A stretch of DNA of 34,885 nucleotides from Lachnospiraceae bacterium (GTDB lineage Bacteria; Bacillota; Clostridia; Lachnospirales; Lachnospiraceae), in contig JAJQGP010000069.1 in assembly GCA_021200475.1 (NCBI GenBank), forward strand, positions 1 through 34,885, read 5' to 3'. Below the pieces are notes generated by a model. That model saw nothing but the letters and a program-made list of their open reading frames with translations, made no database searches and had not been told where the DNA came from. Shown one piece after another: positions 5,927 to 27,144 of the stretch. The first letter of the stretch is position 1. Each line of letters opens with the position of its first letter. Made by a program: the position numbers and the translations under genes.

Positions 5927-7714
5927 TTAATCAGAATTCAGCGCCTCCACCGGCACCAGTTTGGATGCCTGCCATGCCGGGTAAAAACCAAAAATCGTAC
6001 CGGTCAGTATCGAAAATGCCAGAGCCGCCGCCCAGGCGTTCACATTCGCTTCTACACGGATCCCATTGTATTCCACCAGCGGCGTCACCAGAAAACTCGC
6101 GCCAACGCCGAGAATCCCGCCGATCAAGCTGATCGTGGCCGATTCAAACAAAAATTCAAACAGGATGTTGCTCCGGGACGCGCCCAGCGATTTCAGAATG
6201 CCGATCTCCTCGGTCCGCTCTTTGACCGAAACAAACAGAACGTTCATAATCCCGATTCCGCCGACGATAAAAACAATAACTGCCATCGCCGACAAAAGCA
6301 TCGTCAAAATTTCATTTGACGATTCTGCCGCCTCCAGCTTACTGCTCGCGTCAGAGAAAGTAAATTCTGCTGTACTGTAATTTTCCTCCAGCACTGTCTC
6401 CACTTTTTCCTTTACGGAATCAACCAGATCAACGTCGTTGCAGATCACAGTAATCACCGGACTGATGTCCGTTCCGGTGATATATTTGATCCCCGTCTCA
6501 TACGGGACGAAAATTGATTCGTCCGGCGTAATATTCGCGGATACCGTTGATGAAGAAGCGAGCACTCCCACGACCTCATAGGCGCGGTCATCCAGGTAAA
6601 GCGTTTCTCCGTATGCTTCTTCGGCACTTCCAAACAGTTCTTTCGCCACTGTGCTTCCCAGAACACAGACTCGCGTGCTGCTGTCGCTCTCCTCGTCTGT
6701 AATGAACTCGCCCTCTGCCATTGACAGATTGCTGACCGTATAATAACTGTAATATACGCCCGCTACCGTGTAGGTCTCGGCACTGGTCAGATCGTCGCCT
6801 TCCACAGAAGTCCGCGAAGTATAGGAGATCGTCGCGCCGTCCAGCTCTGTTACAAATGTTTCAATATCCTCTACATCATCTATGGTGAGAATAATATTTT
6901 CCTGATTCAGGCGGCTGTCCGTCAGATCAGTCTCCGACTCCGTCTCCTCCTCTTCGTCCGCGGATATTGCCGCGGCTTCCTCACTTGCGCCCTCTTCCGA
7001 ATCGCTTTCCGTTCCCTCGGCACCTTCCTCGTTTTCTCCATCAGCGGATCCCGTATTCTCGCCGAAATCCGCCGCATCGGCGTTATCTTCCCCGCCGCCC
7101 TCTGTGTTTTCTCCGGCAACGTCCCCGGAAAACATGGAAGCAATATCGCTCATATCCATATCACCATTTGAAATTGCATCCGCGATATCGCTCAGATCAC
7201 TGTCCGAAAAATCACTCATCCCACCCATATCCGACCTGCCGCCGGAAGCATCATCCGAAGAAGTATCATTCCCCATACTTCTTCCGCCCCCGGGCAAGCT
7301 GTCACTGTCCGAATCAGAACCACCGCCCATCGTCATCCCGCCGGCACTCGACATACCACTTCCGGAATCGGATGAATTCCGGTCTCCTCTGGAACTGGCA
7401 GAATCGCTTCCGCCGCCCATGTTGAAGAAACTGCTGACGTTACTCATAAGAGAGCTTCCAAGATCACTGATGGAAAAGCTTCCGCTGGCGCTGGTAGTCG
7501 TCTCTTCTCCCTCATAGTCATACGTAATGTCAATGGATCCGGCATTCAAACTTGCAAACTGCTCTGCGACATCCATCTTTCCACCGCGTCCGATCGCAAT
7601 GACCATCACAATTGTCGCGGCACCGACGATAATTCCGATGGATGTCATGACAGTCTTGAACTTGTTCTGGTTAATATTCAGCCAGACAAGTCTCAACAGC
7701 TCCGAAAGTCTCAT
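5927..7714 (-). CDS. MacB-like ABC exporter permease (FtsX fold) with long acidic insert
   Basis: Membrane subunit of the exporter, 595 aa. Membrane helix 1 is at about 20-42 and three C-terminal helices are at about 475-497, 525-547 and 560-580, the MacB/FtsX pattern. The extracellular domain between them has MacB core sequence from about 275 to 470. Before it lies a low-complexity insert of about 190 residues (75-265), rich in Ser, Asp, Gly and Met, then Glu. The insert holds two copies of the DxDLSDIADA repeat at 171-198 and a GGMTM motif echoed in the lipoprotein. The start codon overlaps the upstream adaptor stop as ATGA, so translation is probably coupled. Family members move peptides, lipids or drugs; the substrate here is unknown. 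Confidence 0.9.
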   Translation of the reverse strand: MRLSELLRLVWLNINQNKFKTVMTSIGIIVGAATIVMVIAIGRGGKMDVAEQFASLNAGSIDITYDYEGEETTTSASGSFSISDLGSSLMSNVSSFFNMGGGSDSASSRGDRNSSDSGSGMSSAGGMTMGGGSDSDSDSLPGGGRSMGNDTSSDDASGGRSDMGGMSDFSDSDLSDIADAISNGDMDMSDIASMFSGDVAGENTEGGGEDNADAADFGENTGSADGENEEGAEGTESDSEEGASEEAAAISADEEEETESETDLTDSRLNQENIILTIDDVEDIETFVTELDGATISYTSRTSVEGDDLTSAETYTVAGVYYSYYTVSNLSMAEGEFITDEESDSSTRVCVLGSTVAKELFGSAEEAYGETLYLDDRAYEVVGVLASSSTVSANITPDESIFVPYETGIKYITGTDISPVITVICNDVDLVDSVKEKVETVLEENYSTAEFTFSDASSKLEAAESSNEILTMLLSAMAVIVFIVGGIGIMNVLFVSVKERTEEIGILKSLGASRSNILFEFLFESATISLIGGILGVGASFLVTPLVEYNGIRVEANVNAWAAALAFSILTGTIFGFYPAWQASKLVPVEALNSD

Positions 7715-9195
7715 TCTGTCACCTGGCTTTCTATCAACACAATCTGTCCTTCTGTGAGCCCGGAGGTGACCGCCACAGTTGTACCATTCGAATATCCGGT
7801 CGTGATGGTCACTTCCTCAATCGTTCCGTCATCCTGAAGTACTTTTACATAGGAAGTCGCTCCATCTGTCTGTACCGCGCGGTTCGAAATATAAAGCGTA
7901 TCTGCTTCCTCCCTTGTGATAAAGGTCACTTCACCGGTCATGCCGGAATATACCTTTGTAATATCACCGGTAAAGTTTACTGTCACCTCATAATTTACCG
8001 TTGAGGAACCCGTCATCGCCGTCGTGGATATCGCTGTCACTTCCCCCTCAAAGGTCTCATCCTCATAAGCGTCCAGCTCAATCGAAACGGTATCTCCAGT
8101 CGAAATATCTGAAATATCGCTCTGAGAAACCGCCACTGTCATTGTCACATCATCTGAGTCCGAAAAAGTCACCACCGTAGAATCACTGGTCAGAGAATCA
8201 CCCGCACTGTAGGAAATTGACATGATCGTCCCGGAATATTCCGCATAGATCACACCATCGCCGATCTGCTCCTCAAACTCAGCCAGAGCTTCCTCCGCAT
8301 CCTCAAGTGCATCCTGCGCATCCTCCAGGTCATCTGTCAGGCCGTCAGTATCTATCTCATAGAGCTGATCTGCATATTCATAATTAGTCATTGCGTTTTC
8401 ATATGTCTGCTTTGCCTCAATCGACTGCGTTGTCAGATTGTTTTTCGCAATTTCCAGATTTGCTTCGATCGTCTCGTAATTCAGCTGTGCCTCCTCCAGG
8501 TCATCCTCCACGTCTTCCCCATCATCGTATTCCGACTGCAGCTCTTCCACCTCTTCCGCGGCCTCTGCCAGCTCTTCTTCCAGCTCTGTCACCGTATTCT
8601 CCAGGCTTGTGATTGTCGCATTATAGGTAGCCTCGGCAGTCTCGCCTTTCGCAATATACATTGCGTACGTATAGTCTGCCTCCGCCTGCTTCGTCTCTAC
8701 ATTAATCTCTTCCTGCTTCACGGTCAGCTCGGCACTCGTAACCGCGGCCTCCAGTTCTTCCCGATACGCCTCGATGCTCTCCTCCGTAATTTTCAAAAGC
8801 GCGTCGCCTTCCGCCACCACCTGGCCAACCGCTACATAAATCTCCTCGACTTCCAGAGAAGTCGAACTGGTACTGGAAGAAGAACTATCCAAACTCATGG
8901 ACATACCTGATCCGCCTGAGGAGCTGCCTGAACTGGAGGAAGATGTCACCTCCGCCACCTCGAAAGTCTGATCCGCTGTCCCATAGGTTACCGTCCCACT
9001 CTCTGTAATACCGGTGATCACCGAACCATATTTTACCGTCTCCTGCCGATAAGAGGTCGTATCCTCCGTGTCTGATTCCTGCTGATCCTGATAAACCACC
9101 CAGGCACCCGCGCCTGCCGCCACAACAATCACCAGAAGAAGAAAATTCCTGAGAAAATGATGTTTTTTCTTCCTCTTTTTCACGTCTCTGCTCAT
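7711..9195 (-). CDS. MacA/HlyD-type membrane fusion protein, adaptor 2 of the exporter
   Basis: A 494-aa adaptor with a basic N-terminus and one membrane helix at about 14-34. The lipoyl half-motif is interrupted by a Ser/Gly-rich insert at about 83-112. A helical hairpin follows (about 135-300, heavily Glu/Ala), then the returning lipoyl half (GTIMSISYSAGD) and beta-barrel and membrane-proximal domains. This is the classic MacA/HlyD order. It has a GAGGGG ribosome site, begins 17 bp after adaptor 1, and its stop overlaps the permease start. In a cell with a single membrane it would extend into the wall rather than meet a TolC-type channel. Confidence 0.9.
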   Translation of the reverse strand: MSRDVKKRKKKHHFLRNFLLLVIVVAAGAGAWVVYQDQQESDTEDTTSYRQETVKYGSVITGITESGTVTYGTADQTFEVAEVTSSSSSGSSSGGSGMSMSLDSSSSSTSSTSLEVEEIYVAVGQVVAEGDALLKITEESIEAYREELEAAVTSAELTVKQEEINVETKQAEADYTYAMYIAKGETAEATYNATITSLENTVTELEEELAEAAEEVEELQSEYDDGEDVEDDLEEAQLNYETIEANLEIAKNNLTTQSIEAKQTYENAMTNYEYADQLYEIDTDGLTDDLEDAQDALEDAEEALAEFEEQIGDGVIYAEYSGTIMSISYSAGDSLTSDSTVVTFSDSDDVTMTVAVSQSDISDISTGDTVSIELDAYEDETFEGEVTAISTTAMTGSSTVNYEVTVNFTGDITKVYSGMTGEVTFITREEADTLYISNRAVQTDGATSYVKVLQDDGTIEEVTITTGYSNGTTVAVTSGLTEGQIVLIESQVTE

Positions 9196-11849: not shown

Positions 11850-11956
11850 AGTATCCCCTCCCGCATGAAACAAATCTGCCAGAATATTACTTTTTTGGCA
11901 ACAGCATATCGTCTTTGTGTGTTCATTTATGGGGGAAAAAATGAAATAATTGTGAA

Positions 11957-11986
11957 TTGACAGGCGTTCGGTTGATTTTTTATACC
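11957..11986 (+). promoter_or_regulatory. Possible + strand promoter facing the ftsH terminator
   Basis: TTGACA at 11957-11962 and TATACC at 11981-11986 with an 18-bp spacer. No + strand gene follows before the terminator at 12100-12142, so any product would be a non-coding RNA of about 150 nt containing the palindromic element. Confidence 0.35.
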
Positions 11987-12003
11987 TTGCGCGGCCGTGC
12001 AAT

Positions 12004-12092
12004 CGAGCAGGAGGCGGCTTGCCGAATCCTACACGTCTGCGCCGACCGCGTCTGGCGTTAGCCAGAAATATTCCCTGCGCGGCCGTGCGCAT
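12004..12092. repeat. Composite intergenic palindrome, copy 3
   Basis: A 32-nt imperfect palindrome at 12004-12035 matches that at 34478-34509 (28 of 32). It is followed by the two-hairpin module: TCTGGC-GTTA-GCCAGA at 12051-12066, spacer AATATTCCC, and TGCGC-GGCCGT-GCGCA at 12076-12091. The segment from 12033 is about 90 percent identical to 16519-16577. Read on the minus strand it encodes RVGFGKP and falsely extends adaptor 1. The rest of the 334-bp gap has only the putative promoter at 11957 and the ftsH terminator. Confidence 0.7.
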
Positions 12093-12142
12093 AAAAAAAC
12101 AGCATCTGCCATTTACAGCTATATGGCCAGATGCTGCTCTCT
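12093..12142. terminator. Bidirectional terminator after ftsH
   Basis: CAGCATCTG (12100-12108) pairs with CAGATGCTG (12128-12136), extended inward by CCAT/ATGG. On the minus strand a run of seven T follows; on the + strand CTCTCTTTTTT follows. Confidence 0.8.
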
Positions 12143-12183
12143 TTTTTCACTATAATCACGCAGGCAACGGGGTTATCCGTTTC

Positions 12184-14334
12184 CTACTCATCTGCTTCTG
12201 TTGCCTTGTCAGACTGCTCTGTCGGTACCTGACCTCCGGACTGCTCCGCTCCCGGTGCCTGTGCTTCCGGCTGCTGCTCCACAGATGTCTGATTCTGCTC
12301 CTGTGACGATACGACAGATGAATCATTCGAACCATCACCAGCGACATCCGAACCGGTACCCGCATCTTCTGCCGTCTGATCGGTCAGTGTTTCCACCGGC
12401 CGGTCCGCAATGCGCGCACCCATCTTCTCGGTATTGTTTCCCTCACCTTCGCACTGGTGCAGAATATCCATAAATTCCTTGCCCGTAATGGTCTCTTTCT
12501 CGATCAGAAACTCTGCAATCTTATCCATCGTCCTGCGGTGTTCGGTCAGAATACGCTTCGCCTCATCATAAGAGTCCTTCAGAATCTGCATAACCTCTTT
12601 ATCGACCTCTGCAGCAGTCACGTCCGAGCAGTTCATCACCGGACGATTATCCAGATACTGCGACGCAGTCACCTCGAGTCCCATCAGACCGAATTTCTTC
12701 GACATACCATACTGCGTCACCATCGCACGGGCTATGCGTGTCGCCTTCTCGATGTCATTCGCCGCGCCGGTGGTCACTGTGTCAAAGACGATTTCTTCCG
12801 CCGCGCGTCCCGCTACAAACTCAACCAGCATCGCACGGATCTCTTTCTCCGTGTTAAGGTATTTCTCCTCCTCCGGCACATTCATCACGTAGCCAAGCGC
12901 CCCCATCGTGCGCGGCACGATCGTAATCTTCTGCACCGGCTCTGAATCCTTTTGCAGTGCACTCACCAATGCATGTCCGACCTCGTGGTAGGAGACAATG
13001 CGCCGCTCTTCTTTACTGAGTACACGGTTCTTCTTCTCCTGACCGACCAGAACTACCTCCACGGCCTCAAACAGATCCTGCTGAGATACTGCCTTACGTC
13101 CTTTCTTGACTGCCAGGATCGCGGCTTCATTGATCATATTTGCCAGATCGGAACCCACGGCACCCGAAGTCGCCAAAGCAATCGTATCCAGGTCAACGGT
13201 CTCATCCATACTGACATTCTTGGAATGTACCTTCAGTGTCTCCACACGACCCTTCAGGTCTGGCTTATCTACCACAACCCGTCGGTCAAAACGGCCTGGC
13301 CGCAGCAACGCCTGATCCAATACCTCCGGACGGTTCGTCGCCGCCAGCACGATCAGCCCCTTGGAAGGCTCGAAGCCATCCATCTCCGCGAGCAGCTGAT
13401 TCAGTGTCTGCTCCCGCTCATCATTTCCGCCGCCGAAGCGGGTATCACGACTCTTCGCCACCGCGTCAATCTCATCGATAAAAATAATGCACGGCGCATT
13501 CTTCTTTGCCTCTTCGAACAGGTCACGAACACGGGAGGCGCCGACACCGACGAACATCTCCACAAAGTCTGAACCCGACAGAGAGAAGAACGGGCATTTT
13601 GCCTCGCCGGCAATCGCTCTCGCGAGAAGCGTCTTACCAGTGCCCGGAGGACCGACAAGCAAAGCACCCTTCGGCAGCTTCGCACCGATCTCTGTATACT
13701 TCTGCGGATTCTCCAGGAAGTCTACCACTTCCTGAAGGGACTCCTTTGCTTCATCCTGTCCTGCTACGTCCTTAAAGGTCACGCCAGTCTCTTTCTGAAT
13801 GTAGACCTTCGCTTTACTCTTGCCGACGCCCATGACGCCCCCGCTGCTATTTGTCATTCGACGCATTGCAAATGCGAAAATCACCCAGATAATGATCAGC
13901 GGCGCAAAGCTGATGATCATACTCCAGATCAGGCTTGAGGTCGTATCCGGTATATTCTGAGTAAACTCCACTCCAGCCTGATCCAGACGTGCTACCAGAT
14001 TGGGGTCATCCGGGTTCCCTGTATAATAAGTCACACTCCCCGAGGAAGTGCCTAAATAGTCCGAAAGTGCGTCGCTCTTCAGCGTAATCTCCAGTTCGTC
14101 ATCATAAATAACAACGGAACTCACCTTCCCCTCGTCAAGCAATTCGAGGAACTCATTATAAGTAATTTCCACGGAGGACGTACTGCTGCTCAGGCTATTG
14201 TTCAGCAAAGCCATAACCAGCAGGGTAACCAGAGTGACCGCCAGAAAAATTATAAAAGTATTACTGTTTCTGCCGGGACGATTTGGTCCCTGGTCTCCGC
14301 CATTGCGGCGGTTATCATTTTGATTGTTATCCAT
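12184..14334 (-). CDS. ftsH: ATP-dependent zinc metalloprotease FtsH
   Basis: Membrane-anchored AAA+ protease that degrades misfolded membrane and regulatory proteins as a hexamer. The 716 aa show membrane helices at about 26-44 and 136-157 around a small extracytoplasmic domain. Also present are Walker A GPPGTGKT (228-235), Walker B FIDEID (285-290), the second region of homology (about 334-352) and the zinc site HEVGH (450-454, Ala of the usual HEAGH replaced by Val). A non-conserved, Gln/Glu/Ser-rich tail of about 80 residues ends the protein. The start at 14334 has AGGAGG upstream, so 14 extra in-frame residues are left out. The promoter is at 14545-14573, divergent from pyrG. Confidence 0.97.
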
Positions 14335-17642: not shown

Positions 17643-18155
17643 CTATAGTTTTTTCTTAAACATGATATAGTAACAATTCAATTCAAATTCTGTGCATTCT
17701 CTTTTATTTTCAGGAAGACACTGCAATAGCTTCGTCTTTACCTCCGGATCTTTTAAATCTTCCCTTAAAGAGTCCTGTATTCCATTTACTTCCATAAACC
17801 TTCTGACCTCAGTCATTGCCCGGTCAAGCTTTCTCTTCTCGACAAGAAAATCCATATTATAACGTGTTTCCGTTTCCCATTCACTCAGCATTTCCGCGTG
17901 ATCATCCAGCCATTCTGTTATGGTAAGATTCGCGCCATTATTCGAAACCATAGAAATCAATTTACTGATTTTATGAGAATATGGTACTGTCACACCCACA
18001 CATTCCAGAGCACCCTTTAAGATCTTTTCCACCGCCTGCTGCAAATGGTACGCGGCATTATTTAAAATCATCTCATCATTCATCTGCGCCCGCCATACCA
18101 TCTCCGCCGTTCGATAATCCATCCTCGCACTCCGGAATAACCGGATATCACACAT
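17643..18155 (-). CDS. HEPN domain protein, partner of a nucleotidyltransferase
   Basis: A 170-aa, mostly helical protein of the HEPN family. Typical features are the AAYHLQQAVEKILKGAL helix, PYSHKISKL and an ETETRYNMDF segment. The R-x4-6-H motif that defines RNase-active HEPN toxins is not visible: RYNMDF lacks the His. It may therefore bind nucleotide or RNA rather than cut RNA. GGAGGTGA lies 4 nt before the ATG. It begins 26 bp after the nucleotidyltransferase stop, the usual MNT-HEPN order in which the two form a complex. Toxin-antitoxin function is possible but not shown. Confidence 0.75.
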   Translation of the reverse strand: MCDIRLFRSARMDYRTAEMVWRAQMNDEMILNNAAYHLQQAVEKILKGALECVGVTVPYSHKISKLISMVSNNGANLTITEWLDDHAEMLSEWETETRYNMDFLVEKRKLDRAMTEVRRFMEVNGIQDSLREDLKDPEVKTKLLQCLPENKRECTEFELNCYYIMFKKKL

Positions 18156-18181
18156 AAAATCACCTCCAATCAAATAACCTT

Positions 18182-18550
18182 TTATGAAACAGGCAGCTTA
18201 CCATTCTGCCTTTCAAATAATAATAATCCGGTTCTGTCAATTTCCTGATACAGTCTGGAATCCGGAGACAGATTTGTAATCACGTCCACTTCACAGTCTA
18301 ATTCCGGAAAATTTTCTATCTTCTTATCTTTGTCATATTTTTCAATATAAAGATCAATATCACTATAGCTGTCGCACCGAAATTCCAGTGAGCTTCCAAA
18401 TAATACCAGTTTACGAATATTATCATCTTTTTTCAAAGCGGAAATAAGCACATCGACCCTTTTTTGCATAAGTGGATGAACACGGTTTGCATTAAAAAAA
18501 GAGACTCCATCCGTTACCGGAAAATCCCACATATTGTTATAATTATTCAT
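18182..18550 (-). CDS. Minimal nucleotidyltransferase (MNT), partner of HEPN
   Basis: A 122-aa protein with the polymerase-beta-fold signature G-S-x10-D-x-D (GSS...SDIDLY) and a third acidic strand in DCEVDVI, so the metal-binding set looks intact. In known MNT-HEPN pairs the MNT protein neutralises the HEPN partner by adding AMP or nucleotides. The start at 18550 is the first ATG and has AAGGAGG 11 nt upstream; a TTG at 18577 could add nine residues. An inverted repeat at 18599-18627 overlaps its likely promoter. Confidence 0.8.
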   Translation of the reverse strand: MNNYNNMWDFPVTDGVSFFNANRVHPLMQKRVDVLISALKKDDNIRKLVLFGSSLEFRCDSYSDIDLYIEKYDKDKKIENFPELDCEVDVITNLSPDSRLYQEIDRTGLLLFERQNGKLPVS

Positions 18551-18582
18551 CCTGATACTGACCTCCTTATGTGCCAACCAAG

Positions 18583-18672
18583 TGTATATTTGAACAAACG
18601 TAACTGTTCAGTACCTTCACAGTTACGGGAAAAAGTCCATTTAAAATCGCTGCGCGATGGGGCTTTTCCACG
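18583..18672. promoter_or_regulatory. Promoter with inverted repeats upstream of the MNT-HEPN pair
   Basis: CGTAACTGT (18599-18607) and ACAGTTACG (18619-18627) form a perfect 9-bp inverted repeat around an 11-nt centre. On the minus strand a weak promoter TGAACA-16-TATACA overlaps it. Just upstream, GGAAAA...TTTTCC encloses ATCGC-TGC-GCGAT (about 18628-18672), a nested hairpin. It could be an operator, an RNA structure or a dispersed repeat. Confidence 0.45.
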
Positions 18673-18727
18673 CATATTTTAGCATACTTCCTTCCACATG
18701 AACAGCTCGTTTATTTCTTCTATATCT

Positions 18728-19387
18728 TCACATCGTATCATATAATGGTCGTATCCGCTCATAAATCTGTGCGAAGTCCACCTCACATTCTCCCTGATAA
18801 ATCCCTAAAGGCACTTTATCCTCAAATCCATAAATTCTGGGAAAATCACTCTTTTCAAACTCATAAACAAAAACTCTCTTTTTGTCCGGATCTACGATCC
18901 AGTATTCGCGCACTCCTGCGTTTCTGTATTTTACCAGCTTCAGTCTGCGGTCTTTGGAAGATGTCGATTTTGATAAAACCTCTGCCACCATATCCGGAGC
19001 TCCAAACACACGTCCTTTCCGGAATTTTGATCGTTCACAGACAATCATCACGTCTGGCTGCACGACTGTCCTGTTATCACAATCCAATTGGACATCCACC
19101 GGAGCAATAAATATAAAACAGGGTCCTTTCTTTTTATCTATATAGTCTAAAAAATAGCTGCCAATCCGCTGGGAAACCGCCTGATGAATATAAGTCGGTG
19201 CCGCCATATCGTAAATCACACCATCAATCAGCTCCACGCGCTGGTCATCCGGCAGCGCCAGGTAATCCTCCAGCGTGTATTCGCCCTGCCGCTTTGCTTT
19301 CGCATATTCTGCCAGCGCTTCTGAGACAAAACAAAGCTCACTTTCCTCGAAGGAGTACTCCTTTACGCCGTTCTTCTTATCCGTCAT
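18728..19387 (-). CDS. Uma2 family (DUF820) PD-(D/E)xK nuclease-like protein
   Basis: A 219-aa protein whose core from about residue 38 matches Uma2. Visible family features are RVELIDGVIYDM, VVQPDVMIV (D112), DMVAEVLSKSTSSKDRRLK (E136, K150) and YRNAGVREYWIVDPDK. The PD-(D/E)xK catalytic residues appear intact. The first 37 residues are an extra helical segment rich in Glu, Lys and Ala. Uma2 genes are abundant in cyanobacteria and often travel with transposons; cellular role is poorly known. The promoter is at 19483-19511 on the minus strand. Its closeness to the MNT-HEPN pair makes this a small accessory block. Confidence 0.82.
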   Translation of the reverse strand: MTDKKNGVKEYSFEESELCFVSEALAEYAKAKRQGEYTLEDYLALPDDQRVELIDGVIYDMAAPTYIHQAVSQRIGSYFLDYIDKKKGPCFIFIAPVDVQLDCDNRTVVQPDVMIVCERSKFRKGRVFGAPDMVAEVLSKSTSSKDRRLKLVKYRNAGVREYWIVDPDKKRVFVYEFEKSDFPRIYGFEDKVPLGIYQGECEVDFAQIYERIRPLYDTM

Positions 19388-19482
19388 ACAAAATCCTCTT
19401 CTTTCCGTTTTTCATACTCTGCATCTGCGTTTTCAAAATCTGCGCCCCCAGTTGTAAAAATTTCTTCCATAGAATTTTATTT

Positions 19483-19511
19483 ATCATACCATTTTCATCT
19501 CATTTTTTCAA
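19483..19511 (-). promoter_or_regulatory. sigma-A promoter of the Uma2 gene
   Basis: On the minus strand TTGAAA (19506-19511) and TATGAT (19483-19488) are separated by 17 bp; the leader is about 90 nt. Confidence 0.6.
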
Positions 19512-19562
19512 CTATTTCCTCTTATTATTTATGTTGTATTCGCAAATATATTCAAAAACCAG

Positions 19563-19592
19563 TTGACGATTCGAACCTTTTCGTTGTATGAT
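19563..19592 (+). promoter_or_regulatory. sigma-A promoter of the ATP-grasp cluster
   Basis: TTGACG (19563-19568) and TATGAT (19587-19592) with an 18-bp spacer. Transcription would begin near 19599 and reach the first start codon after about 259 nt. That leader holds a terminator-like hairpin and a palindromic element. Confidence 0.6.
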
Positions 19593-19607
19593 AAGAAAAG
19601 ATCAAAC

Positions 19608-19642
19608 AAAGGCGTTTTGCATACTTGCATTGCGCCTTTTTT
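19608..19642 (+). terminator. Leader terminator or attenuator of the ATP-grasp cluster
   Basis: AAAGGCG (19608-19614) pairs with CGCCTTT (19633-19639), with an inner TGCA-TACT-TGCA stem, then six T. It sits only about 10-40 nt after the predicted transcription start, so most transcripts might stop here unless it is opened. Confidence 0.5.
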
Positions 19643-19699
19643 GCGCACTGCCGTATAAAGAGAGTTTTCTGCAAAGCATGCAACCCTTTCGAATGACCG

Positions 19700-19793
19700 G
19701 GCGGATTTCCGCCTGATCGGATAGGAGAACTGCTCTTTCCCCTATCCGCGCTGCGCCAGGAGGGTGTGGCGTTTATCCTGTCCGAAAGACAGG
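19700..19793. repeat. Palindromic element, copy 6
   Basis: Hairpins are GGCGGA/TCCGCC (19700-19713), CGGATAGG...CCTATCCG (19718-19748) and CCTGTC-CGAAA-GACAGG (19777-19793). The second hairpin and the following CTGCGCCAGG match the element at 1205-1245. With the promoter and the terminator this accounts for the 470-bp gap before the ATP-grasp gene. Confidence 0.55.
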
Positions 19794-19857
19794 GATGCTA
19801 CGCAGCGGGCGCGAGCGAAAAAACACAGCAAGTATTTCAGGAAAGAGAGGGGTTTTT

Positions 19858-21177
19858 ATGCAGGAGATGGATCTCTACCGCCATACAGATACGGTCAATG
19901 AGCTGCTGGCGCGGTACGGCGTAAAATTCGGTATTTACAAAAACAACGAATTCAAGGAACAGCTGTTTCCGTTTGACGCGATCCCGCGCGTGATCGAAGC
20001 AGAGGAATTCACGTATCTGGAAAAAGGCTTAAAGCAGCGTGTCATGGCGCTGAATCTGTTCATCAAGGATATTTACAGTGAGAAAAAAATCATCCGGGAC
20101 AAGATCGTGCCGGAAGAGTTTATCTATGCGTCAAGCGGGTATCTGGCGCAATGTGAAGGTGTCATGCCTCCGAAAGGCGTGTACGCGCATATTGCCGGGA
20201 TTGACCTGGTACAGGGCAAGGATAAAGAATGGTACATACTCGAAGACAACCTGCGCGTGCCGTCAGGCGCTTCTTATCCGATGATCGCGCGGGAGCTCTG
20301 CCGCAGGAGCAGCCCGCTGACCTTCCAGCAGACGCACATCGCGGACAACCGCAATTACGCGGAGCTGCTGCGCCGCACGATGGACTATGTCAATACCGGC
20401 GACCACACCGTCATCCTGACACCGGGCCGCTACAATTCGGCATACTTTGAGCACTCCTATCTGGCGGAGAAGACAGGGGCGCACCTTGTCACCGGCAGTG
20501 AACTGCTGGTGGAAAATGATCATCTGTATTTCATCGATTACTCCGGACGCAAGGAGCCGGTCGGCGCGGTATACCGCCGCATCTCAGACGAATACCTGGA
20601 TCCGATGAATTTCTACGAGGGGTCTCTGATCGGCATCCCGCACCTGTATGATATTTTCCGCAAGGGCAATGTCGCGCTGCTGAACGCACCGGGCAACGGC
20701 GTGGCAGATGACAAGGGCATTTACTACTTCGTGCCGAAGATGATCAAATACTACCTCGGCGAAGAGCCGATCCTGCACAACGCCCCGACCTATCTGCCTT
20801 TATATAAGGAAGATATGGATTATGTGCTGGAGCACTTTGACGACCTGGTACTCAAAGATGTCGCGGAAGCCGGCGGTTATGGCGTCCAGTTCGGCAACAA
20901 GATGACAAAGCAGGAAAAGGAAGACTTCATCGCGCTTCTGAAACGGGAGCCGCGGCGCTTTATCGCGCAGGAGGTCATCGACTTCCTTGATATTGATATT
21001 TTTGAAAACGGAGAATGCGTACCGCGCAAAGCGGATCTGCGTGCATTCGTGCTGATGGCGGATGAACCGCTGGTATGGAAGAGCGGACTGACCCGCTTCT
21101 CCCGCAACCCGGATTCGTTCATCGTCAACTCATCTCAGGGAGGAGGATTTAAAGACACATGGGTATTATCTCAGTAG
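19858..21177 (+). CDS. Circularly permuted ATP-grasp protein (DUF404/DUF407 type)
   Basis: A 439-aa predicted carboxylate-amine ligase with the permuted ATP-grasp fold, which in this family joins acids and amines using ATP. Recognisable blocks are the N-terminal VPRVIEAEEF-like region (about 43-54), YLAQCEGVMPPKG, YILEDNLRVPSGASY (the acidic ATP/metal region), LKDVAEAGGYGVQFG (the lysine and glycine loop) and the C-terminal KADLRAFVLM...TRFSR block. The full order is present. The start at 19858 has GAGAGGGG just upstream; 21 in-frame codons before it lie in repeat DNA. The stop overlaps the alpha-E gene by 19 nt. With alpha-E and transglutaminase neighbours this matches a conserved bacterial set thought to make or attach short peptides; product unknown. 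Confidence 0.88.
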   Translation: MQEMDLYRHTDTVNELLARYGVKFGIYKNNEFKEQLFPFDAIPRVIEAEEFTYLEKGLKQRVMALNLFIKDIYSEKKIIRDKIVPEEFIYASSGYLAQCEGVMPPKGVYAHIAGIDLVQGKDKEWYILEDNLRVPSGASYPMIARELCRRSSPLTFQQTHIADNRNYAELLRRTMDYVNTGDHTVILTPGRYNSAYFEHSYLAEKTGAHLVTGSELLVENDHLYFIDYSGRKEPVGAVYRRISDEYLDPMNFYEGSLIGIPHLYDIFRKGNVALLNAPGNGVADDKGIYYFVPKMIKYYLGEEPILHNAPTYLPLYKEDMDYVLEHFDDLVLKDVAEAGGYGVQFGNKMTKQEKEDFIALLKREPRRFIAQEVIDFLDIDIFENGECVPRKADLRAFVLMADEPLVWKSGLTRFSRNPDSFIVNSSQGGGFKDTWVLSQ

Positions 21178-21833
21178 AAAACACAGACCGCCTGTTCTGG
21201 CTCGGGCGGTACAGCGAGCGCGTTTATACCACCATTAAGCTGTTCGCGGAAAGCTTCGACACCATGATTGACATCGATGAAATGGGCAGTCTGGACGGTT
21301 TTTGTAAAAAACTGGAAATTCCAAACATTTACAAATCCGGAGAGGATTTTGTCGGCCGTTATTGCTTCGACCCGGAGGATCCGAACTCGATCTATTCCAA
21401 CCTGACCCGCGCCTACGACAACTGCATCGTACTGCGCGAGGAAATTGGCAGCGACACCATTTCCTACATCCAGCTTGCGATGTACGAGATGAATAAAGCT
21501 CGACTTTCCCCCTCACCGCTGATAGAGCTGCAGCACGTGCTCGACGACATTCTCGCGTTCTGGGGCATCGTAGACGACGAGATTGACAGCGAAAACGTCC
21601 GCAATATCATCAAGGTCGGCAAGCGTGTGGAGCGCCTCGATCTGTATGCCCGCCTGCATATGTCCCGCGAGGAACTCAAGTGCGAGGTAGACCGGCTTTC
21701 CGGCCGAATCTGGCGTACCTGCCTGAAATATCGGCAGTCCACCCTTGATGAATTGAGCCGGCTCGTCAACGCGCCGCGGATCGACTACATCACAATCGTT
21801 CAGAAGACGGAATCACTTCTGGAGGATTCCTGA
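21159..21833 (+). CDS. Alpha-E domain protein (DUF403)
   Basis: A 224-aa all-helical protein starting with the family hallmark ISVENTDRLFWLGRYSERV and containing LTRAYDNCIVLREEI and KVGKRVERLDLYARL, rich in helix-forming Glu, Leu and Arg. The alpha-E domain nearly always accompanies the permuted ATP-grasp protein, sometimes fused to it, and is presumed to be its partner; no reaction is known. GGAGGAGG lies inside the end of the ATP-grasp gene and the two coding regions overlap by 19 nt, so translation is likely coupled. About 120 bp separate it from the next gene, filled by a strong hairpin. Confidence 0.88.
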   Translation: MGIISVENTDRLFWLGRYSERVYTTIKLFAESFDTMIDIDEMGSLDGFCKKLEIPNIYKSGEDFVGRYCFDPEDPNSIYSNLTRAYDNCIVLREEIGSDTISYIQLAMYEMNKARLSPSPLIELQHVLDDILAFWGIVDDEIDSENVRNIIKVGKRVERLDLYARLHMSREELKCEVDRLSGRIWRTCLKYRQSTLDELSRLVNAPRIDYITIVQKTESLLEDS

Positions 21834-21867
21834 TTTCTTATGACTCTGGCTACCAGACACACCGCCT

Positions 21868-21915
21868 CGGGAAGTCAGATACCCCCATGCTGGCATCAGG
21901 GTATCTGACTTCCCG
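21868..21915. repeat. 17-bp perfect hairpin inside the ATP-grasp cluster
   Basis: The arm at 21868-21884 (CGGGAAGTCAGATACCC) and its exact complement at 21899-21915 enclose an inner ATGC/GCAT stem. No T run follows, so it is not a typical terminator. It may be an RNA processing or stability element, or an inserted palindrome. Confidence 0.75.
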
Positions 21916-21952
21916 GGAATAAAAACATAAACAGACTCCGGAGGATTCACGC

Positions 21953-22816
21953 ATGAAAGATCTGCTCTTTGAGTACGACATGCACCTGGATTTTGCACCG
22001 CCGGTCGAAGAACACCGCTTTACCCTGAAATGCATCCCTTTGACAGATGAACGACAATTGATTAACCGACTCGACGTGGAGATTTACCCGAAGGAGTTTT
22101 TGTCTACCGATAAAGACTCCTTTGGCAATTACAGCATTTACGGCTATACAAAGGGACAACACGACCGGTTTTTTGCCCGTGTCCGCGGGCAGGCGCGCAC
22201 CGGACTCGCGCCATACCTGACTGCCAAAGAAGAGCATCAGGTCGGACTGTTTAAATATCAGACCGACTACACCAGACCCGGACCTGCGATTTTGAAATTC
22301 GCGGAACAATTTGAAAGCGCTGCGGAAAAATACCGGAAATCGGGTGACGAAAATCAAACCCGCTTCCCTGAACGGGAAATTATTTCTACAGGCAGTGCGA
22401 CAGCCATATTCGATTTTGCCATCACACTCATGCATGGCCTTTACGAGAATTTTTCCTATGTGCAGGGTGTTACGGACGTCCGTACCACCGCGGAGGAGGC
22501 GATGGCGCTCGGCAAAGGCGTCTGTCAGGATTATTCCCACATCCTGCTCTCCCTGTGCCGGATCTGGAAGATTCCCTGCCGCTATGTGGTCGGCATGCTG
22601 ATCGGCGAAGGCCTGAGTCACGCCTGGGTCGAGGTCTGCAGCGGCGGCCGTTGGTACGCGCTCGACCCGACAAATAACCTGATCGTTGACGACCAGCACA
22701 TCAAAATCTCCGCCGGCCGCGATTATCACGACTGTATCGTCAGTCAGGGCGTCTTTGTGGGCCGCACCACACAGACACAGACGGTCGCGGTGCGGGTGAA
22801 GGAAATGAACCCGTAA
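21953..22816 (+). CDS. Transglutaminase-like cysteine protease/transpeptidase
   Basis: A 287-aa cytoplasmic protein with an N-terminal beta-rich domain (about 1-100) and a transglutaminase-like catalytic core. The triad is C191 (GKGVCQDYSH), H223 (LSHAWVEV) and D238 (ALDPTN), all present. In this family the domain cleaves or exchanges amide bonds. Beside the permuted ATP-grasp and alpha-E genes it could process the peptide product of the ligase. GGAGG lies 12 nt upstream of the start. No signal peptide was seen, unlike secreted members. Confidence 0.88.
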   Translation: MKDLLFEYDMHLDFAPPVEEHRFTLKCIPLTDERQLINRLDVEIYPKEFLSTDKDSFGNYSIYGYTKGQHDRFFARVRGQARTGLAPYLTAKEEHQVGLFKYQTDYTRPGPAILKFAEQFESAAEKYRKSGDENQTRFPEREIISTGSATAIFDFAITLMHGLYENFSYVQGVTDVRTTAEEAMALGKGVCQDYSHILLSLCRIWKIPCRYVVGMLIGEGLSHAWVEVCSGGRWYALDPTNNLIVDDQHIKISAGRDYHDCIVSQGVFVGRTTQTQTVAVRVKEMNP

Positions 22817-22818
22817 TT

Positions 22819-22833
22819 ATATTATCATAATAT
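22819..22833. promoter_or_regulatory. AT-rich palindrome between the transglutaminase and first M14 genes
   Basis: ATATTAT-C-ATAATAT is a perfect 15-nt palindrome 68 bp before the first M14 start. It could be an operator for a separate promoter here, but no good -10/-35 pair was found. Confidence 0.3.
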
Positions 22834-22900
22834 CCCAAATAGACCGTTATGTAAGCATAGTTTATAAAGAATATACCATTGACACAAGAAAGGGTATCCT

Positions 22901-23833
22901 ATGATACAGACAATCGCAAAAACCAATATGCCGGTGGATGAGGTGCTGCGCATCCGCAAGAATCACATCCAGCCGGAAAACATCTCTTCCTCAAAGCGCA
23001 TCAGCATTGTCACCGGCATCCACGGCGATGAGCTGGAGGGACAGTATGTCTGCTATGAAATTGCACGTAGAATAGAAGAACATCCGGAATGTCTGAAGGG
23101 GACGGTCGATATCTACCCTGCCCTAAATCCGTTCGGCATTGATTCCGTGACACGGGGCATCCCGGCCTTTGACCTTGATATGAACCGCATTTTTCCGGGA
23201 AATACAGACGGAGACATGAACGAATACCTTGCCGCAGAGATCATCCGCGATCTTCAGGGCTCCGATCTCTGTCTGGATATCCACGCGAGCAATATTTACC
23301 TGACGGAAATTCCGCAAATCCGTATCAATGAGCTGCACACGGAAACTCTGCTGCCCTGGGCAAAGCTCGCCAACGTTGACTTTATCTGGGTACACGGCAC
23401 GAGCACGGTATTGGAATCTACGCTTGCGTTCAGCCTGAACAGCCGGAATGTTCCGACCCTGGTGGTTGAAATGGGCGTCGGCATGCGCATCACAAAAGAA
23501 TATGGCGACCAGCTCACAGACGGCATCTTCCGCCTGATGAAAGAAATGGGCATCTGGACGGGTTCTGCACCGGAAGTGCGCACTCCCATCATCTCTGAAA
23601 ATCCTGACGACGTCGCCTTCCTGAACGCGCCCGTTTCCGGCATTTTTATCAAAACACGTTCTCATGGAAGCATGCTGAAAACAGGCGATGAGATCGGGCG
23701 GATCGTAGACCCGCTGCGCGGCACCCTGCTTGGCGTCATCACTGCCCCGGTCGACGGATGGCTGTTTACCGTACGGGAATATCCGGTCGTAGATGAAGGA
23801 TCTCTGCTTGCAAGGATTTTGCAGAATGTATAG
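22901..23833 (+). CDS. M14-family zinc hydrolase, AstE/AspA-like, active form
   Basis: A 310-aa metallohydrolase related to succinylglutamate desuccinylase and aspartoacylase, which cut an acyl or peptide amide bond. Zinc ligands are H41 and E44 (GIHGDE) and H128 (LDIHAS), with the catalytic glutamate probably E190 (VVEMGVG). The DMNRIFPG substrate-binding motif is at 93-100. The C-terminal 80 residues form a small beta domain (VSGIFIKTRSHGSML). AAAGGG lies 7 nt before the start. It follows the transglutaminase gene by 84 bp and the paralog follows 14 bp after its stop. It could trim the product of the ATP-grasp ligase; that is inference. Confidence 0.85.
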   Translation: MIQTIAKTNMPVDEVLRIRKNHIQPENISSSKRISIVTGIHGDELEGQYVCYEIARRIEEHPECLKGTVDIYPALNPFGIDSVTRGIPAFDLDMNRIFPGNTDGDMNEYLAAEIIRDLQGSDLCLDIHASNIYLTEIPQIRINELHTETLLPWAKLANVDFIWVHGTSTVLESTLAFSLNSRNVPTLVVEMGVGMRITKEYGDQLTDGIFRLMKEMGIWTGSAPEVRTPIISENPDDVAFLNAPVSGIFIKTRSHGSMLKTGDEIGRIVDPLRGTLLGVITAPVDGWLFTVREYPVVDEGSLLARILQNV

Positions 23834-23847
23834 AGGGGAGAATTGTT

Positions 23848-24783
23848 ATGAAACAATCCGTTTTATTTGAGATAAAAGCACTTTACCGCGACAACTTCCG
23901 CGTCACCGGTTTCACCTTCGGTGAAGGTGAGGAATCCATCTGTATCGTCGGAAGCATGCGCGGCAACGAAAACCAGCAGCTCTACGCCTGTTCCCGCCTG
24001 ATCCGCAAGCTGACTGAATTAGAAGAACGCGGGCGCATTCTGCCCGGAAAACAGATTCTTGTCATTCCCTGCGTAAATCCCTACTCCATGAACATCAAAA
24101 AACGATTCTGGACGATTGACAACACGGACATCAACCGCATGTTCCCCGGCTACGACCAGGGCGAGACCACACAGCGCATCGCAGCCGGCGTATTCCATGC
24201 CATCCAGAACTATAAATTTGGCGTCCAGTTTGCTTCCTTTTATATGCCGGGAGCTTTTGTACCCCATGTTCGTATGATGAAAACCGGATTCGAAAGTGTC
24301 GATCTGGCACAGCAGTTCGGACTTCCCTACATCGTCCTGCACGACCCGCGCCCCTTCGACACTACGACGCTGAATTACAACTGGCAGATCTGGGAGACAA
24401 ACGCATTTTCCATCTATACCACCAACACGCAGCGCATCGACCGGGAAAGCGCAAAGCAGGCCGAGGAAGCCATCCTGAACTTCATGGAAAAACAGGGCAT
24501 CATCCGCTACCGCGGCTACAGCGGCTACCATTCCCGCGTCATCGAAAGCCGCGATTTCATTCCTGTCCGCGCGGAGGATTCCGGCTTCTTCGAAGCTCTG
24601 GTACACCCGGGTGAGGAAGTCGACGAAGGGCAGCTGCTCGCCCGGATTTACGACCCGTATCTCGGTACCGTCCGCTGCACCCTGCATGCGCCCGCCCACA
24701 GCACCATCGCTTTTGTCCACGACGAAGCCATGACCTACCAGAGTACCGCAGTGCTCAAACTCATTCGGGAAGAAGATTATTAA
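23848..24783 (+). CDS. M14/AstE-like paralog with lost zinc ligands, probable pseudoenzyme
   Basis: A 311-aa protein of the same layout as the preceding one, with a comparable C-terminal domain (GFFEALVHPGEEVDEG) and a DINRMFPG motif at 94-101. The first zinc histidine of HGDE is R38 (SMRGNE) and the second is F128 (VQFAS aligned with DIHAS), while E41 and possibly E183 remain. Two of three zinc ligands are therefore missing and ordinary catalysis is unlikely. Immediate adjacency suggests a heterodimer or a binding/regulatory partner. GAGGGGAG precedes the ATG. It ends the cluster, before a terminator. Confidence 0.82.
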   Translation: MKQSVLFEIKALYRDNFRVTGFTFGEGEESICIVGSMRGNENQQLYACSRLIRKLTELEERGRILPGKQILVIPCVNPYSMNIKKRFWTIDNTDINRMFPGYDQGETTQRIAAGVFHAIQNYKFGVQFASFYMPGAFVPHVRMMKTGFESVDLAQQFGLPYIVLHDPRPFDTTTLNYNWQIWETNAFSIYTTNTQRIDRESAKQAEEAILNFMEKQGIIRYRGYSGYHSRVIESRDFIPVRAEDSGFFEALVHPGEEVDEGQLLARIYDPYLGTVRCTLHAPAHSTIAFVHDEAMTYQSTAVLKLIREEDY

Positions 24784-24794
24784 ATAAAAATGAG

Positions 24795-24840
24795 AAAAAG
24801 TGCTCCGGCCATAATACACAAAGACCGGAGCATTTCTATA
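24795..24840. terminator. Terminator between the M14 pair and the beta-galactosidase
   Basis: TGCTCCGG (24801-24808) pairs with CCGGAGCA (24825-24832). On the minus strand CTTTTTCTC follows, a good terminator for the galactosidase gene; on the + strand only TTTCT follows. Confidence 0.7.
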
Positions 24841-25029
24841 ACTCTTATTTATATACTACCACATACTGTTCTTTCAAGAATTGCACAAGTGCCTGCAGTT
24901 TCCACATCTTTTACCCAAGATGAAACGAATTAGACCAGATATTGTTCCATCAGCGATGACCCTGTAAACAAAATTTCTCCTTTCCTGTTCAGGCGGTCTG
25001 ATTTTCATCCTGCCTCAATTAAATCTCCT

Positions 25030-27144
25030 TTAAGAACCCATGGGGCAAAACACCTCCGTCTCATATGGCGCAAGAATAACATCCCCTGCCGCTTCACACT
25101 CCCCAAAAATTCGTTTCATCGGCTGTTTCAGAACAATCGTTTGCGGCATAGATTGAAAATTCAACGCAAACATCCACATCTGACTGCCCTTCCGGCGCTG
25201 CACGAGTTCCACTCCTTCCGGCGCTTCGATCAGTTCATCAAAAGGCGACAGCACACCGGTGTATTCTAACAGGAGTTTTACATTCTCTCTGGAAAATGCA
25301 CTTCCCAGATGAAGTGTACGCCCATTTCCGGTTTTCTTTTCGATCAGCGCCGCTTTCCCGGCGTAGTAGCTGTTAGAATAACAGGCAAGAATTCGCATAT
25401 TATTATCCGAATCATTTTGCAAATCATACTTTCCGGAATCACCCAGAGAAGAATTCTCTGCCAATTCCATAATATCATTGAATACTGGCATTTCCATCTT
25501 ATGCCCATCCCAGTCAGCATAAACCGGCGGTTCCGCAGGGCTTGCAAAGGTAAAATCGCGCACATCCGATCCCGTCAACTCGACAAGCAGCCCTGGCTGA
25601 GGTAGCATTACACATTTTCCATTCTCCTGCTTGTATCCGCTTCGGCAGCCCAGAATCAATGTCCCCCCATGCTCCACATACTGCTTCAGGATGTGAAGCC
25701 GTCCCCTTGTCATAATGACCGGATGCGGATAAAACAGCACCGGATACCCTGACAGCTCATCCACAGTTGTCGTTTCCCGTATATATACAGAATCATACGG
25801 CGTGTGGGTAAGCTCCGATACCTCAAAGATTGCCTCTTCGCTTACATCTGCCACACGTCGGTGCCAGGCATCCACATTTGTGTCCCATTCATTATCATAA
25901 TCCTTCAGAAGCCCGAAAGCAGCAGTAAAGTCTGCGCCGCAGAGATCATCAAGCTTTCTGAATTTCCGATAAAAGTCCTTCACCTCCCCCAGCTTTCGAT
26001 TATCACGATTGTCATAGTCCAGTATCCCATGCCAGTAAATTTCAGTCCCAAACGTACAGGTACGCCAGCGGAAAAAAGAAATATAATCTGCCCCCTGCGC
26101 GACACTCTGCATTGCCCAAAGGGTAAGCTGCCCCGGTCTGGGAGCCGGTCCCTCCATCCGTGTCGTCCAGCCATTCGCGCCAGACTGCTGCTCCATAATC
26201 CCAAAATGCGGACAGACGGAACGTACCTCTGTCAGATTCTTTGTCCAGTGACGATCATTCAAATCCGTCGCATGCAAGGGATCACGGTCAAGCCCAAATG
26301 CAAAGCTTGGATAGGAATCATAGGTATAGACATCCAGGCACTCATCCTCCATACGGTGGTTGTCCATATTCCAGAACAGACCATTTGTCGTGATAAAATC
26401 GCCGTCCTTTTTATATTTGCGGAGAATCTCCGCCTGCATCCGGCAAAAAGATACCGCGCTCTCGGAAATAAACCGATAATAATCCAGATGCAGATGCGGA
26501 TTATACCCATGGTTCAACAACGGACGCGGCACATACACCTGATTCCAGTCTGTATACGTCTGGTTCCAGAACACCGTCCCCCATGCTTCATTCAGCGCTT
26601 CCAACGTACCATAACGGTTTATCAGAAACTTGCGGAAAGCATCCGAATCTGCTTCTGAATGGAATTCGTTGGTTTCACAGTTAATCTCATTGTCAATCTG
26701 CCAGCCCACAACCGCCGGATGCCTCCCATAATGTTCACCGATTCGCTCCACAATCCGGGATACCAGCTCGCGGTACTTCAAAGAATTGTAATTGTAATGC
26801 CGTCTTCCGCCATGGCGGTATGGCACGCCTGCTTCATTGCAGTTAAGCGTCTCCGGGTATTTTTCCGTCAGCCATGCAGGAGGCGTTGCCGATGGTGTGC
26901 CAAGGATGACTCCCATCCCTTTTTTCTGGCACAAATCGAGGAAGGTGTCAAAAAAATCATATGTAACAACGCCTTCTTCCGGTTCCACCTTATTCCAGGC
27001 AAATTCAGCGATACGCACAGTCGAAATGCCCGTCTCCAGCATACGGTCCAGATCCTGCGGCCAAAGCTTCTGCGGCCAGTGCTCCGGGTAATAGCAAACG
27101 CCCATTGTCATTTTTTTCCACTGGAAATTTTGATTTTTTCTCAT
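25030..27144 (-). CDS. Beta-galactosidase, glycoside hydrolase family 42
   Basis: A cytoplasmic enzyme hydrolysing terminal beta-galactosides, probably from imported oligosaccharides. The 704 aa cover the GH42 domains: a TIM barrel (about 10-385) with MGVCYYPEHWP at the start, acid/base E153 (GWQIDNEIN) and nucleophile E318 (FGIMEQQSG). A trimerisation domain (about 395-600) and a small C-terminal beta domain follow. No signal peptide. The start at 27144 follows GGAGAAAAAGT; the open frame has six more codons without a ribosome site. The promoter is at 27354-27382. No transporter is adjacent. Confidence 0.93.
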   Translation of the reverse strand: MRKNQNFQWKKMTMGVCYYPEHWPQKLWPQDLDRMLETGISTVRIAEFAWNKVEPEEGVVTYDFFDTFLDLCQKKGMGVILGTPSATPPAWLTEKYPETLNCNEAGVPYRHGGRRHYNYNSLKYRELVSRIVERIGEHYGRHPAVVGWQIDNEINCETNEFHSEADSDAFRKFLINRYGTLEALNEAWGTVFWNQTYTDWNQVYVPRPLLNHGYNPHLHLDYYRFISESAVSFCRMQAEILRKYKKDGDFITTNGLFWNMDNHRMEDECLDVYTYDSYPSFAFGLDRDPLHATDLNDRHWTKNLTEVRSVCPHFGIMEQQSGANGWTTRMEGPAPRPGQLTLWAMQSVAQGADYISFFRWRTCTFGTEIYWHGILDYDNRDNRKLGEVKDFYRKFRKLDDLCGADFTAAFGLLKDYDNEWDTNVDAWHRRVADVSEEAIFEVSELTHTPYDSVYIRETTTVDELSGYPVLFYPHPVIMTRGRLHILKQYVEHGGTLILGCRSGYKQENGKCVMLPQPGLLVELTGSDVRDFTFASPAEPPVYADWDGHKMEMPVFNDIMELAENSSLGDSGKYDLQNDSDNNMRILACYSNSYYAGKAALIEKKTGNGRTLHLGSAFSRENVKLLLEYTGVLSPFDELIEAPEGVELVQRRKGSQMWMFALNFQSMPQTIVLKQPMKRIFGECEAAGDVILAPYETEVFCPMGS

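Follow-up and report, generated by a model that had tools for sequence, protein, structure and literature searches.

A five-gene cluster of Lachnospiraceae that appears to be a variant of the Anbu operon, with an AstE-like enzyme and its zinc-less homologue in place of Anbu

The DNA analysed here is a stretch of 34,885 nucleotides from a Lachnospiraceae bacterium, hereafter called the window, which constitutes the whole of contig JAJQGP010000069.1 in the 3.2-Mb assembly GCA_021200475.1. A cluster of five genes is located at positions 19858-24783. An initial annotation, made from the sequence alone, had assigned these genes to a permuted ATP-grasp enzyme, an alpha-E protein, a transglutaminase and a pair of M14/AstE proteins, and this gene content is borne out. 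All five genes are on the forward strand, they contain no internal stop codons, and each of their products scores above the curated Pfam cut-off. The features of the cluster are as follows.

19858..21177, + strand: circularly permuted (CP) ATP-grasp amidoligase, 439 aa; PF14403 (CP_ATPgrasp_2) 448.6 bits, PF04174 409.5 bits.
21159..21833, + strand: alpha-E protein, short form, 224 aa; PF04168 77.4 bits, covering profile positions 7-187 of 294.
21159..21177, + strand: overlap of the ATP-grasp and alpha-E reading frames, 19 nt.
21866..21917, + strand: hairpin in the gap between the alpha-E and transglutaminase-like genes, 19 pairs, no T run.
21953..22816, + strand: transglutaminase-like (TG) cysteine enzyme, 287 aa; PF01841 (Transglut_core) 67.2 bits, PF08379 (Bact_transglu_N) 32.9 bits.
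22901..23833, + strand: M14A, a predicted zinc amidohydrolase of the AstE/ASPA/DoeB type, 310 aa; PF24827 (AstE_AspA_cat) 81.8 bits.
23848..24783, + strand: M14B, a predicted zinc-less AstE-like pseudoenzyme, 311 aa; PF24827 50.7 bits.

There are at least 580 relatives of M14B in a scan of public genomes, from which the best 80 loci were kept, so that near relatives are favoured. Most are contigs of metagenome-assembled genomes. Two pairs (L034/L112 and L036/L148) represent the same contigs twice, and errors in binning may account for some odd taxonomic labels (Treponema, Spirochaetaceae, Gastranaerophilales). All five genes are found in order and on one strand in 71 of these 80 loci. Five further loci (L072, L112, L133, L136 and L151) start at a contig end, and the other four (L083, L096, L105 and L149) are disturbed or short of genes within the sequence examined. 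The overlap between the first two genes that the initial annotation had reported is real, and 62 of the 71 complete relatives have an overlap of exactly this length, as judged from the starts of tblastn matches.

The association was also examined in a sample of 150 Lachnospiraceae genomes, one per genus. Because open reading frames (ORFs) were picked greedily in order of length, so that antisense ORFs hide some genes, gene presence was scored by tblastn or by hidden Markov model. M14B is present in 35 of the 150 genomes and alpha-E in 18. There are CP ATP-grasp matches in 25, of which 22 exceed the cut-off and 16 extend nearly end to end on the profile; the remaining matches are partial genes, remnants or weak hits. 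The initial annotation had staked its reading on the M14 genes co-occurring with the first three genes (hereafter the trio) in related genomes. They do so without exception in this sample: all 18 genomes with alpha-E and all 16 with a full ATP-grasp gene fall within the 35 that carry M14B (for alpha-E, Fisher P 6e-14, uncorrected for relatedness).

These 35 genomes hold 40 M14B loci, with two loci each in five genomes, and M14A is located directly beside M14B in 38 of the 40. The exceptions are a lone M14B (G061) and a decayed locus (G124). Trio genes adjoin the M14 pair on the same contig at 17 loci and lie at the end of another contig at one (G114), one locus (G124) is a fused remnant, and 21 lack the trio, comprising 20 M14 pairs and the lone M14B. 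In a wider sample of 348 genomes from the phylum, the ATP-grasp gene is present in nine, and six of these have an adjacent M14 pair (the window genome, G443, G486, G397, G452 and G474, the last with a TG gene that is missing from the ORF list and was recovered by tblastn). In families f7, f9, f37 and f58, the M14 pair is found at the same place. Thus, the five-gene set is a real conserved unit. The layout that the initial annotation had proposed, in which a ligase and its helical partner are combined with a cysteine enzyme and a zinc amidase, is upheld as a conserved set. However, a strict one-pathway reading of it is too strong, since half of the 40 loci carry the M14 pair without the trio.

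The two M14 proteins are only 21% identical to each other. Both are of the AstE type, as had been annotated, but they do not form a pair of amidases: one looks like an active enzyme and the other is a zinc-less homologue. Residue conservation was assessed over loci with a single hit covering more than 85% of the query, plus the window in each case (78 of the 80 loci for M14A, 80 for M14B, 71 for TG, 67 for alpha-E and 66 for ATP-grasp). In M14A, the zinc site His41-Glu44-His128, the base Glu190 and the Asn95-Arg96 pair are intact in 79 of 79 rows, which is the complete zinc site expected of AstE and ASPA. M14B instead carries Arg38, Ala129 and Tyr190 at the zinc and base positions. Among its 81 rows, Arg38 is invariant, position 129 is Ala, Ser or Thr and never His, and Tyr190 is present in 79.

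The nearest solved structures to M14A are 3cdx, 2qj8 and the DoeB entries 6twm and 6twl. M14A shares with the AstE/ASPA/DoeB family (PF24827) the HxxE...H motif, the N-R pair and the base Glu. It differs in being paired with M14B and in scoring far below the equivalog cut-off for DoeB, an N-acetyl-diaminobutanoate deacetylase (55.8 bits for M14A and 39.6 for M14B versus 402.7).

Despite the loss of its zinc site, M14B is in use and not decaying, given that it is subject to strong purifying selection and is at least as strongly constrained as M14A. Relative to L075, the ratio of nonsynonymous to synonymous substitution rates (dN/dS) is 0.033 for M14B and 0.059 for M14A; L075 is the comparison used, and synonymous changes are saturated against other relatives. 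Moreover, M14B has its own set of residues that are invariant in 46 aligned rows: R38, N40, E41, Q43, Q44, D94, Q127, S130, R142, D171, N176, W179 and Q180. In the distant family f58, the second M14 protein has an intact zinc triad and lacks the base Glu. This protein likely belongs with the B clade, on the basis of its operon position and a shared TDINRMFPGY..GETTQRIA stretch, and its intact triad suggests that loss of the zinc site was probably a later event in the B lineage. Within the Lachnospiraceae set, 3 of 38 M14A rows carry another residue in place of the first His, and 6 of 38 do so in place of Arg96. These rows all come from trio-less loci, which hints at relaxed constraint there.

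There are two unusual representatives of the M14 genes. In L152 (G443), positions 6669-8204 encode an in-frame fusion of M14B with a methyltransferase domain at its C-terminus (PF08241, 79 bits). An M14A/M14B pair is also found at 11906-13760 of MT835471.1 (L170), an unverified 'Bacteriophage sp.' record from human faeces, which is either a case of phage genes or a mislabelled chromosome. There is no trio or purL match within the 25-kb stretch around that pair.

The trio proteins carry conserved motifs. Residues 15-438 of the ATP-grasp protein align with PDB entry 3n6x, a 'putative glutathionylspermidine synthase', at E 2e-109, and K333, D393, R395, N424, Q427 and K432 are kept in 67 of 67 rows. 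Its dN/dS relative to L075 is 0.012. The alpha-E residues R17, E20, R21, R148, E158 and R159 are kept in 68 of 68 rows, and a phmmer search of PDB sequences with this protein gave no match at E up to 1. The TG enzyme matches PDB entry 3isr (E 1e-14), and its triad Cys191-His223-Asp238 is present in 72 of 72 rows. Simple hydropathy analysis reveals no strongly hydrophobic stretch in any of the five proteins, so the chemistry is probably cytosolic. This would fit the suggestion of the initial annotation that the product may be an internal metabolite.

The trio is already known. It forms the first part of the Anbu operon, which excerpts of PMC5666114 and PMC6376114 describe as consisting of ATP-grasp, alpha-E, transglutaminase-like and Anbu genes. 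The same three enzymes are encoded in the same order and on one strand in plasmid loci of Paracoccus and Limimaricola (L166 and L169), where they are followed by a fourth protein, labelled 'peptidase', that matches the Proteasome family PF00227 (35.9 and 24.9 bits, cut-off 22.4). In addition, the ATP-grasp protein of the window is approximately 40-44% identical to most of the 15 listed proteobacterial plasmid copies. Plasmid loci of Sinorhizobium (L167) and Caballeronia (L165) were checked by tblastn, because the plasmid gene table describes itself as incomplete, and no Anbu was found in the stretches examined.

No counterpart of Anbu was found with the five-gene set. A tblastn search with the L166 and L169 Anbu proteins gave no hit in the other 138 of 140 sequences, the window included. 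PF00227 is absent from all 17 Lachnospiraceae alpha-E genomes searched, which include the window genome and some incomplete assemblies, with the 18th (G037) outside the search. There are seven PF00227 matches above the cut-off in other families, all of which are far from the cluster and are probably HslV. Thus, the set has the CP ATP-grasp, the alpha-E protein and the transglutaminase-like enzyme with Bact_transglu_N, and it lacks the proteasome-like subunit that gives the Anbu operon its name. It also differs in that alpha-E is of the short form, covering the first two thirds of its profile, and in the 19-nt overlap. Judged by gene content and order, M14A and M14B occupy the Anbu slot, and the set appears to be a variant of the Anbu operon, not a full member, that occurs in Lachnospiraceae and in parts of the phylum outside this family. 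In the open-licence PMC papers searched, which do not include the 2009 amidoligase survey cited for this gene set (PMC3268129), we found no M14/AstE pair with the trio, no zinc-less partner and no glutamate- or aspartate-side neighbours.

Genes that recur beside the operon offer clues to its substrate. The initial annotation had noted the lack of a transporter, and this holds for the five-gene locus in the window, although an importer accompanies the cluster in a minority of relatives. Specifically, a polar amino-acid ABC importer, consisting of a solute-binding protein (SBP) and a permease, is present in the upstream or downstream flanks of 13 of the 80 loci, often with a cytidylate-kinase-like gene. 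It is also found at 4 of 16 Lachnospiraceae group I loci and at none of 20 trio-less control loci (L047, L053, L070, L071 and the window are in neither group). From a background of 77 SBP_bac_3 matches in 48.1 Mb of 16 genomes, about 2 SBPs are expected in the 80 loci (P 3e-7) and 0.35 in the 16 (P 4e-4), where all neighbour P values treat loci as independent. A PuuD-like gene is located nearby in 7 of the 80 loci, where a background of 12 full matches across 21 genomes would give 0.25 (P 1e-8), and in none of the 20 controls; another is present in L152. The one SBP examined, from L117, has an aspartate/glutamate-binding model as its best match (183.2 bits versus an equivalog cut-off of 373), and its best PDB match is 2v25. 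Scans of three of the seven PuuD-like proteins place them in Peptidase_C26 (195-211 bits). Their best model is PuuD, a gamma-glutamyl-GABA hydrolase, although the scores of 100.7 (L090), 91.4 (L095) and 105.1 bits (L109) are below its 266-bit cut-off.

There are also five of the 80 loci (L091, L102, L134, L137 and L138) at which a protein of approximately 329 amino acids with a RelA/SpoT region is encoded beside the operon, as scanned in L137. An ORF in L153 begins with sequence that, judged by eye, is similar to this protein. In the window itself, a putative restriction endonuclease gene of the Uma2 family (PF05685; 18728-19387, - strand) is located upstream of the cluster on the opposite strand, and a relative of it is found near the operon in L042 too. 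Adjoining HEPN (PF05168) and Polbeta nucleotidyltransferase (PF18765) genes at 17643-18577 on the - strand look like a HEPN/MNT toxin-antitoxin pair.

The trio-less loci carry their own gene association, in that purL is present within the fetched flank in 15 of the 21 (L045, L050-L052, L054, L056, L058-L060, L062, L064-L066, L068 and L071). The identity of its product, phosphoribosylformylglycinamidine (FGAM) synthase, comes from a scan of L050. A purine link for the M14 pair was considered on this basis and rejected, because in L042 purL lies downstream of a complete five-gene set, and in L163 a fragment of the ATP-grasp gene runs directly into one of M14B beside purL. Thus, purL looks like an old address and not a partner, and a history in which an original set of five genes lost its trio is the likelier one. 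Most trio-less loci group in a single clade, together with L042 and L046, with support of 94/99 for B and 94/95 for A, both below the starred level. The tree, from which rows of 250 amino acids or less were excluded, is unrooted, and long branches separate A from B; it agrees with trio loss and does not fix the direction. Remnants of the operon were observed elsewhere as well. The ATP-grasp gene runs into M14B after a deletion in G124 (L070) and, as the short fragments noted above, in G025 (L163), and there are ATP-grasp fragments in G019 (L161, with TG), G083 (L162) and G094 (L164).

The five genes are likely expressed as a single transcript, as predicted from the sequence. The ATP-grasp frame could begin earlier, at 19795 in the ORF list, but a purine-rich stretch upstream of 19858 and the many relatives that align from residue 1 or near it favour the later start. 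The assembly holds a single CP ATP-grasp match. M14A and M14B are separated by 14 nt in the window, and the median spacing among the complete relatives is -4 nt, which suggests translational coupling of these two genes. The gap between TG and M14A is 84 nt and that between alpha-E and TG is 119 nt. The latter is predicted to fold with -46.1 kcal/mol (z -6.1), and it contains the hairpin listed above, which is long and perfectly paired. Among eight near relatives, L074 has a similar layout and loop with a different stem, and L075, L078 and L080 have a gap of only 3 nt. The hairpin is thus not a general part of the operon, and it may be a small mobile element. Positions 18500-25500 yield no Rfam match at E values up to 1, and the only two matches in seven relatives are both in L094, approximately 5 kb or more from its cluster. 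Terminator-like sites occur at chance frequency (6 versus 6.4 expected) and promoter-like sites above it (12 versus 5.4 expected), the latter being consensus hits only.

One possibility, which we favour tentatively, is that the whole set acts as a cytosolic ligase/hydrolase module for amides of acidic amino acids, perhaps tied to nitrogen limitation. The ATP-grasp enzyme would activate a carboxylate as an acyl phosphate and couple it to an amine, with alpha-E presenting or positioning the partner; excerpts of PMC6376114 report that the ATP-grasp protein of the Anbu operon releases phosphate from ATP. The TG-like cysteine enzyme may then exchange or hydrolyse the amide of the predicted product, and M14A would hydrolyse an amide to free the acidic amino acid. 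M14A would probably act in a heteromer with M14B, which would contribute substrate contacts or regulation. A parallel is the mitochondrial processing peptidase, in which one zinc subunit is joined by a homologue without zinc ligands (PMC11266112), although its fold is different, its substrates are proteins, and the M14A/M14B complex is only putative. The conjugate may carry glutamate or aspartate, as suggested by the aspartate/glutamate-like importer and the PuuD-like hydrolase that are repeatedly encoded near the operon of some relatives. The Anbu operons of Pseudomonas and Burkholderia offer an analogy by which a role in nitrogen limitation is conceivable. In Pseudomonas putida grown on nitrate versus ammonium, Anbu (PP_2685) is up by log2 4.44 and ATP-grasp (PP_2688) by log2 3.99 (PMC8050072, Table 2), and genes I35_5080-83 of Burkholderia cenocepacia are described in an excerpt of PMC5491218 as NtrC/sigma54-dependent.

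Unfortunately, several observations weigh against this proposal. The importer and the PuuD-like gene are located beside a minority of loci and not beside the window's copy, and PuuD is found at none of the 16 group I loci. A Fisher test of the importer against the trio-less controls gives only P 0.04, and the enrichment values assume independence even though the loci are related and one contig (L034/L112) is counted twice. The substrates of the SBP and the PuuD-like proteins are guesses, since their scores are well below the NCBIfam equivalog cut-offs. Three of the nine phylum-sample genomes (G171, G368 and G318; loci L157, L158 and L159) have the trio with neither the M14 pair nor Anbu, and in G318 the alpha-E and TG genes are fused in one long ORF (L157). 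The nitrogen link is borrowed from other phyla, and an excerpt of PMC5666114 describes expression of the Anbu operon as constitutive and unchanged under various conditions. More generally, gene content and order, motif conservation, the absence of Anbu where searched and the enrichment of neighbours are direct observations, while the reactions, the complex and the nitrogen control are inferred. Finally, the M14 pairs without a trio indicate that the pair's substrate need not be the trio's product. M14A must therefore have a trio-independent use, wherein either the conjugate is also obtained from the diet or from neighbouring cells, or the two systems are only loosely linked.

That last option leads to a rather unlikely alternative, in which the genes are neighbours by history and the M14 pair is an independent amidase system, perhaps for salvage of N-acyl or gamma-glutamyl compounds in the gut, with substrates unrelated to the trio. 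The many trio-less pairs, their frequent purL association, the five genomes in which both kinds of M14 locus coexist and the trio-only genomes are all consistent with this view. However, every full-length ATP-grasp gene in the Lachnospiraceae sample is accompanied by M14B in the same genome (16 of 16, on different contigs in G114), the pair holds its position across the four families named above, and L042 and L163 are what would be expected if an original set of five genes had lost its trio. A less probable alternative applies a published proposal for the Anbu operon, as summarized in PMC6376114 and PMC5666114, whereby proteins would be tagged by the trio with a short peptide, and the M14 proteins would remove this tag in the manner of the deconjugase that Anbu is proposed to be. 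An amidase in place of Anbu would suit such a role, but an excerpt of PMC6376114 reports that no specific interaction of Anbu with other operon proteins was detected. The neighbouring genes also point to small acidic amino acids. Furthermore, the substrates of AstE-type enzymes (AstE, ASPA and DoeB) are small N-acyl amino acids, which argues against a protein tag. A similarly improbable reading takes M14B not for a pseudoenzyme but for an enzyme that works independently of zinc, or for a protein that binds a ligand of its own, by means of the invariant residues listed above. Its strong conservation, which exceeds that of M14A by dN/dS, would be explained in this way. However, two zinc ligands and the base were lost together, and the Tyr at the base position is shared with three M14 pseudo-carboxypeptidases (PMC11266112, Table 2).

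We know of no confirmed substrate for the Anbu operon. Perhaps the M14 pair replaces Anbu functionally, such that a metalloamidase and a pseudo-amidase now do what a proteasome-like particle did before, though we regard this as doubtful. If true, Anbu itself may not be a machine for degrading proteins but an amidase, with a substrate (a small glutamyl or aspartyl conjugate) that is produced when nitrogen is limiting. The lack of any detected peptidase activity of Anbu would then be explained as well. A branch of the operon in gut bacteria that has exchanged Anbu for an enzyme family of well-understood chemistry, together with the genes that neighbour it in some relatives, would narrow the search for the substrate to a small set. 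In addition, an enzyme/pseudoenzyme pair whose zinc-less member has a likely counterpart with an intact zinc triad in distant relatives would offer a compact case of pseudoenzyme evolution.

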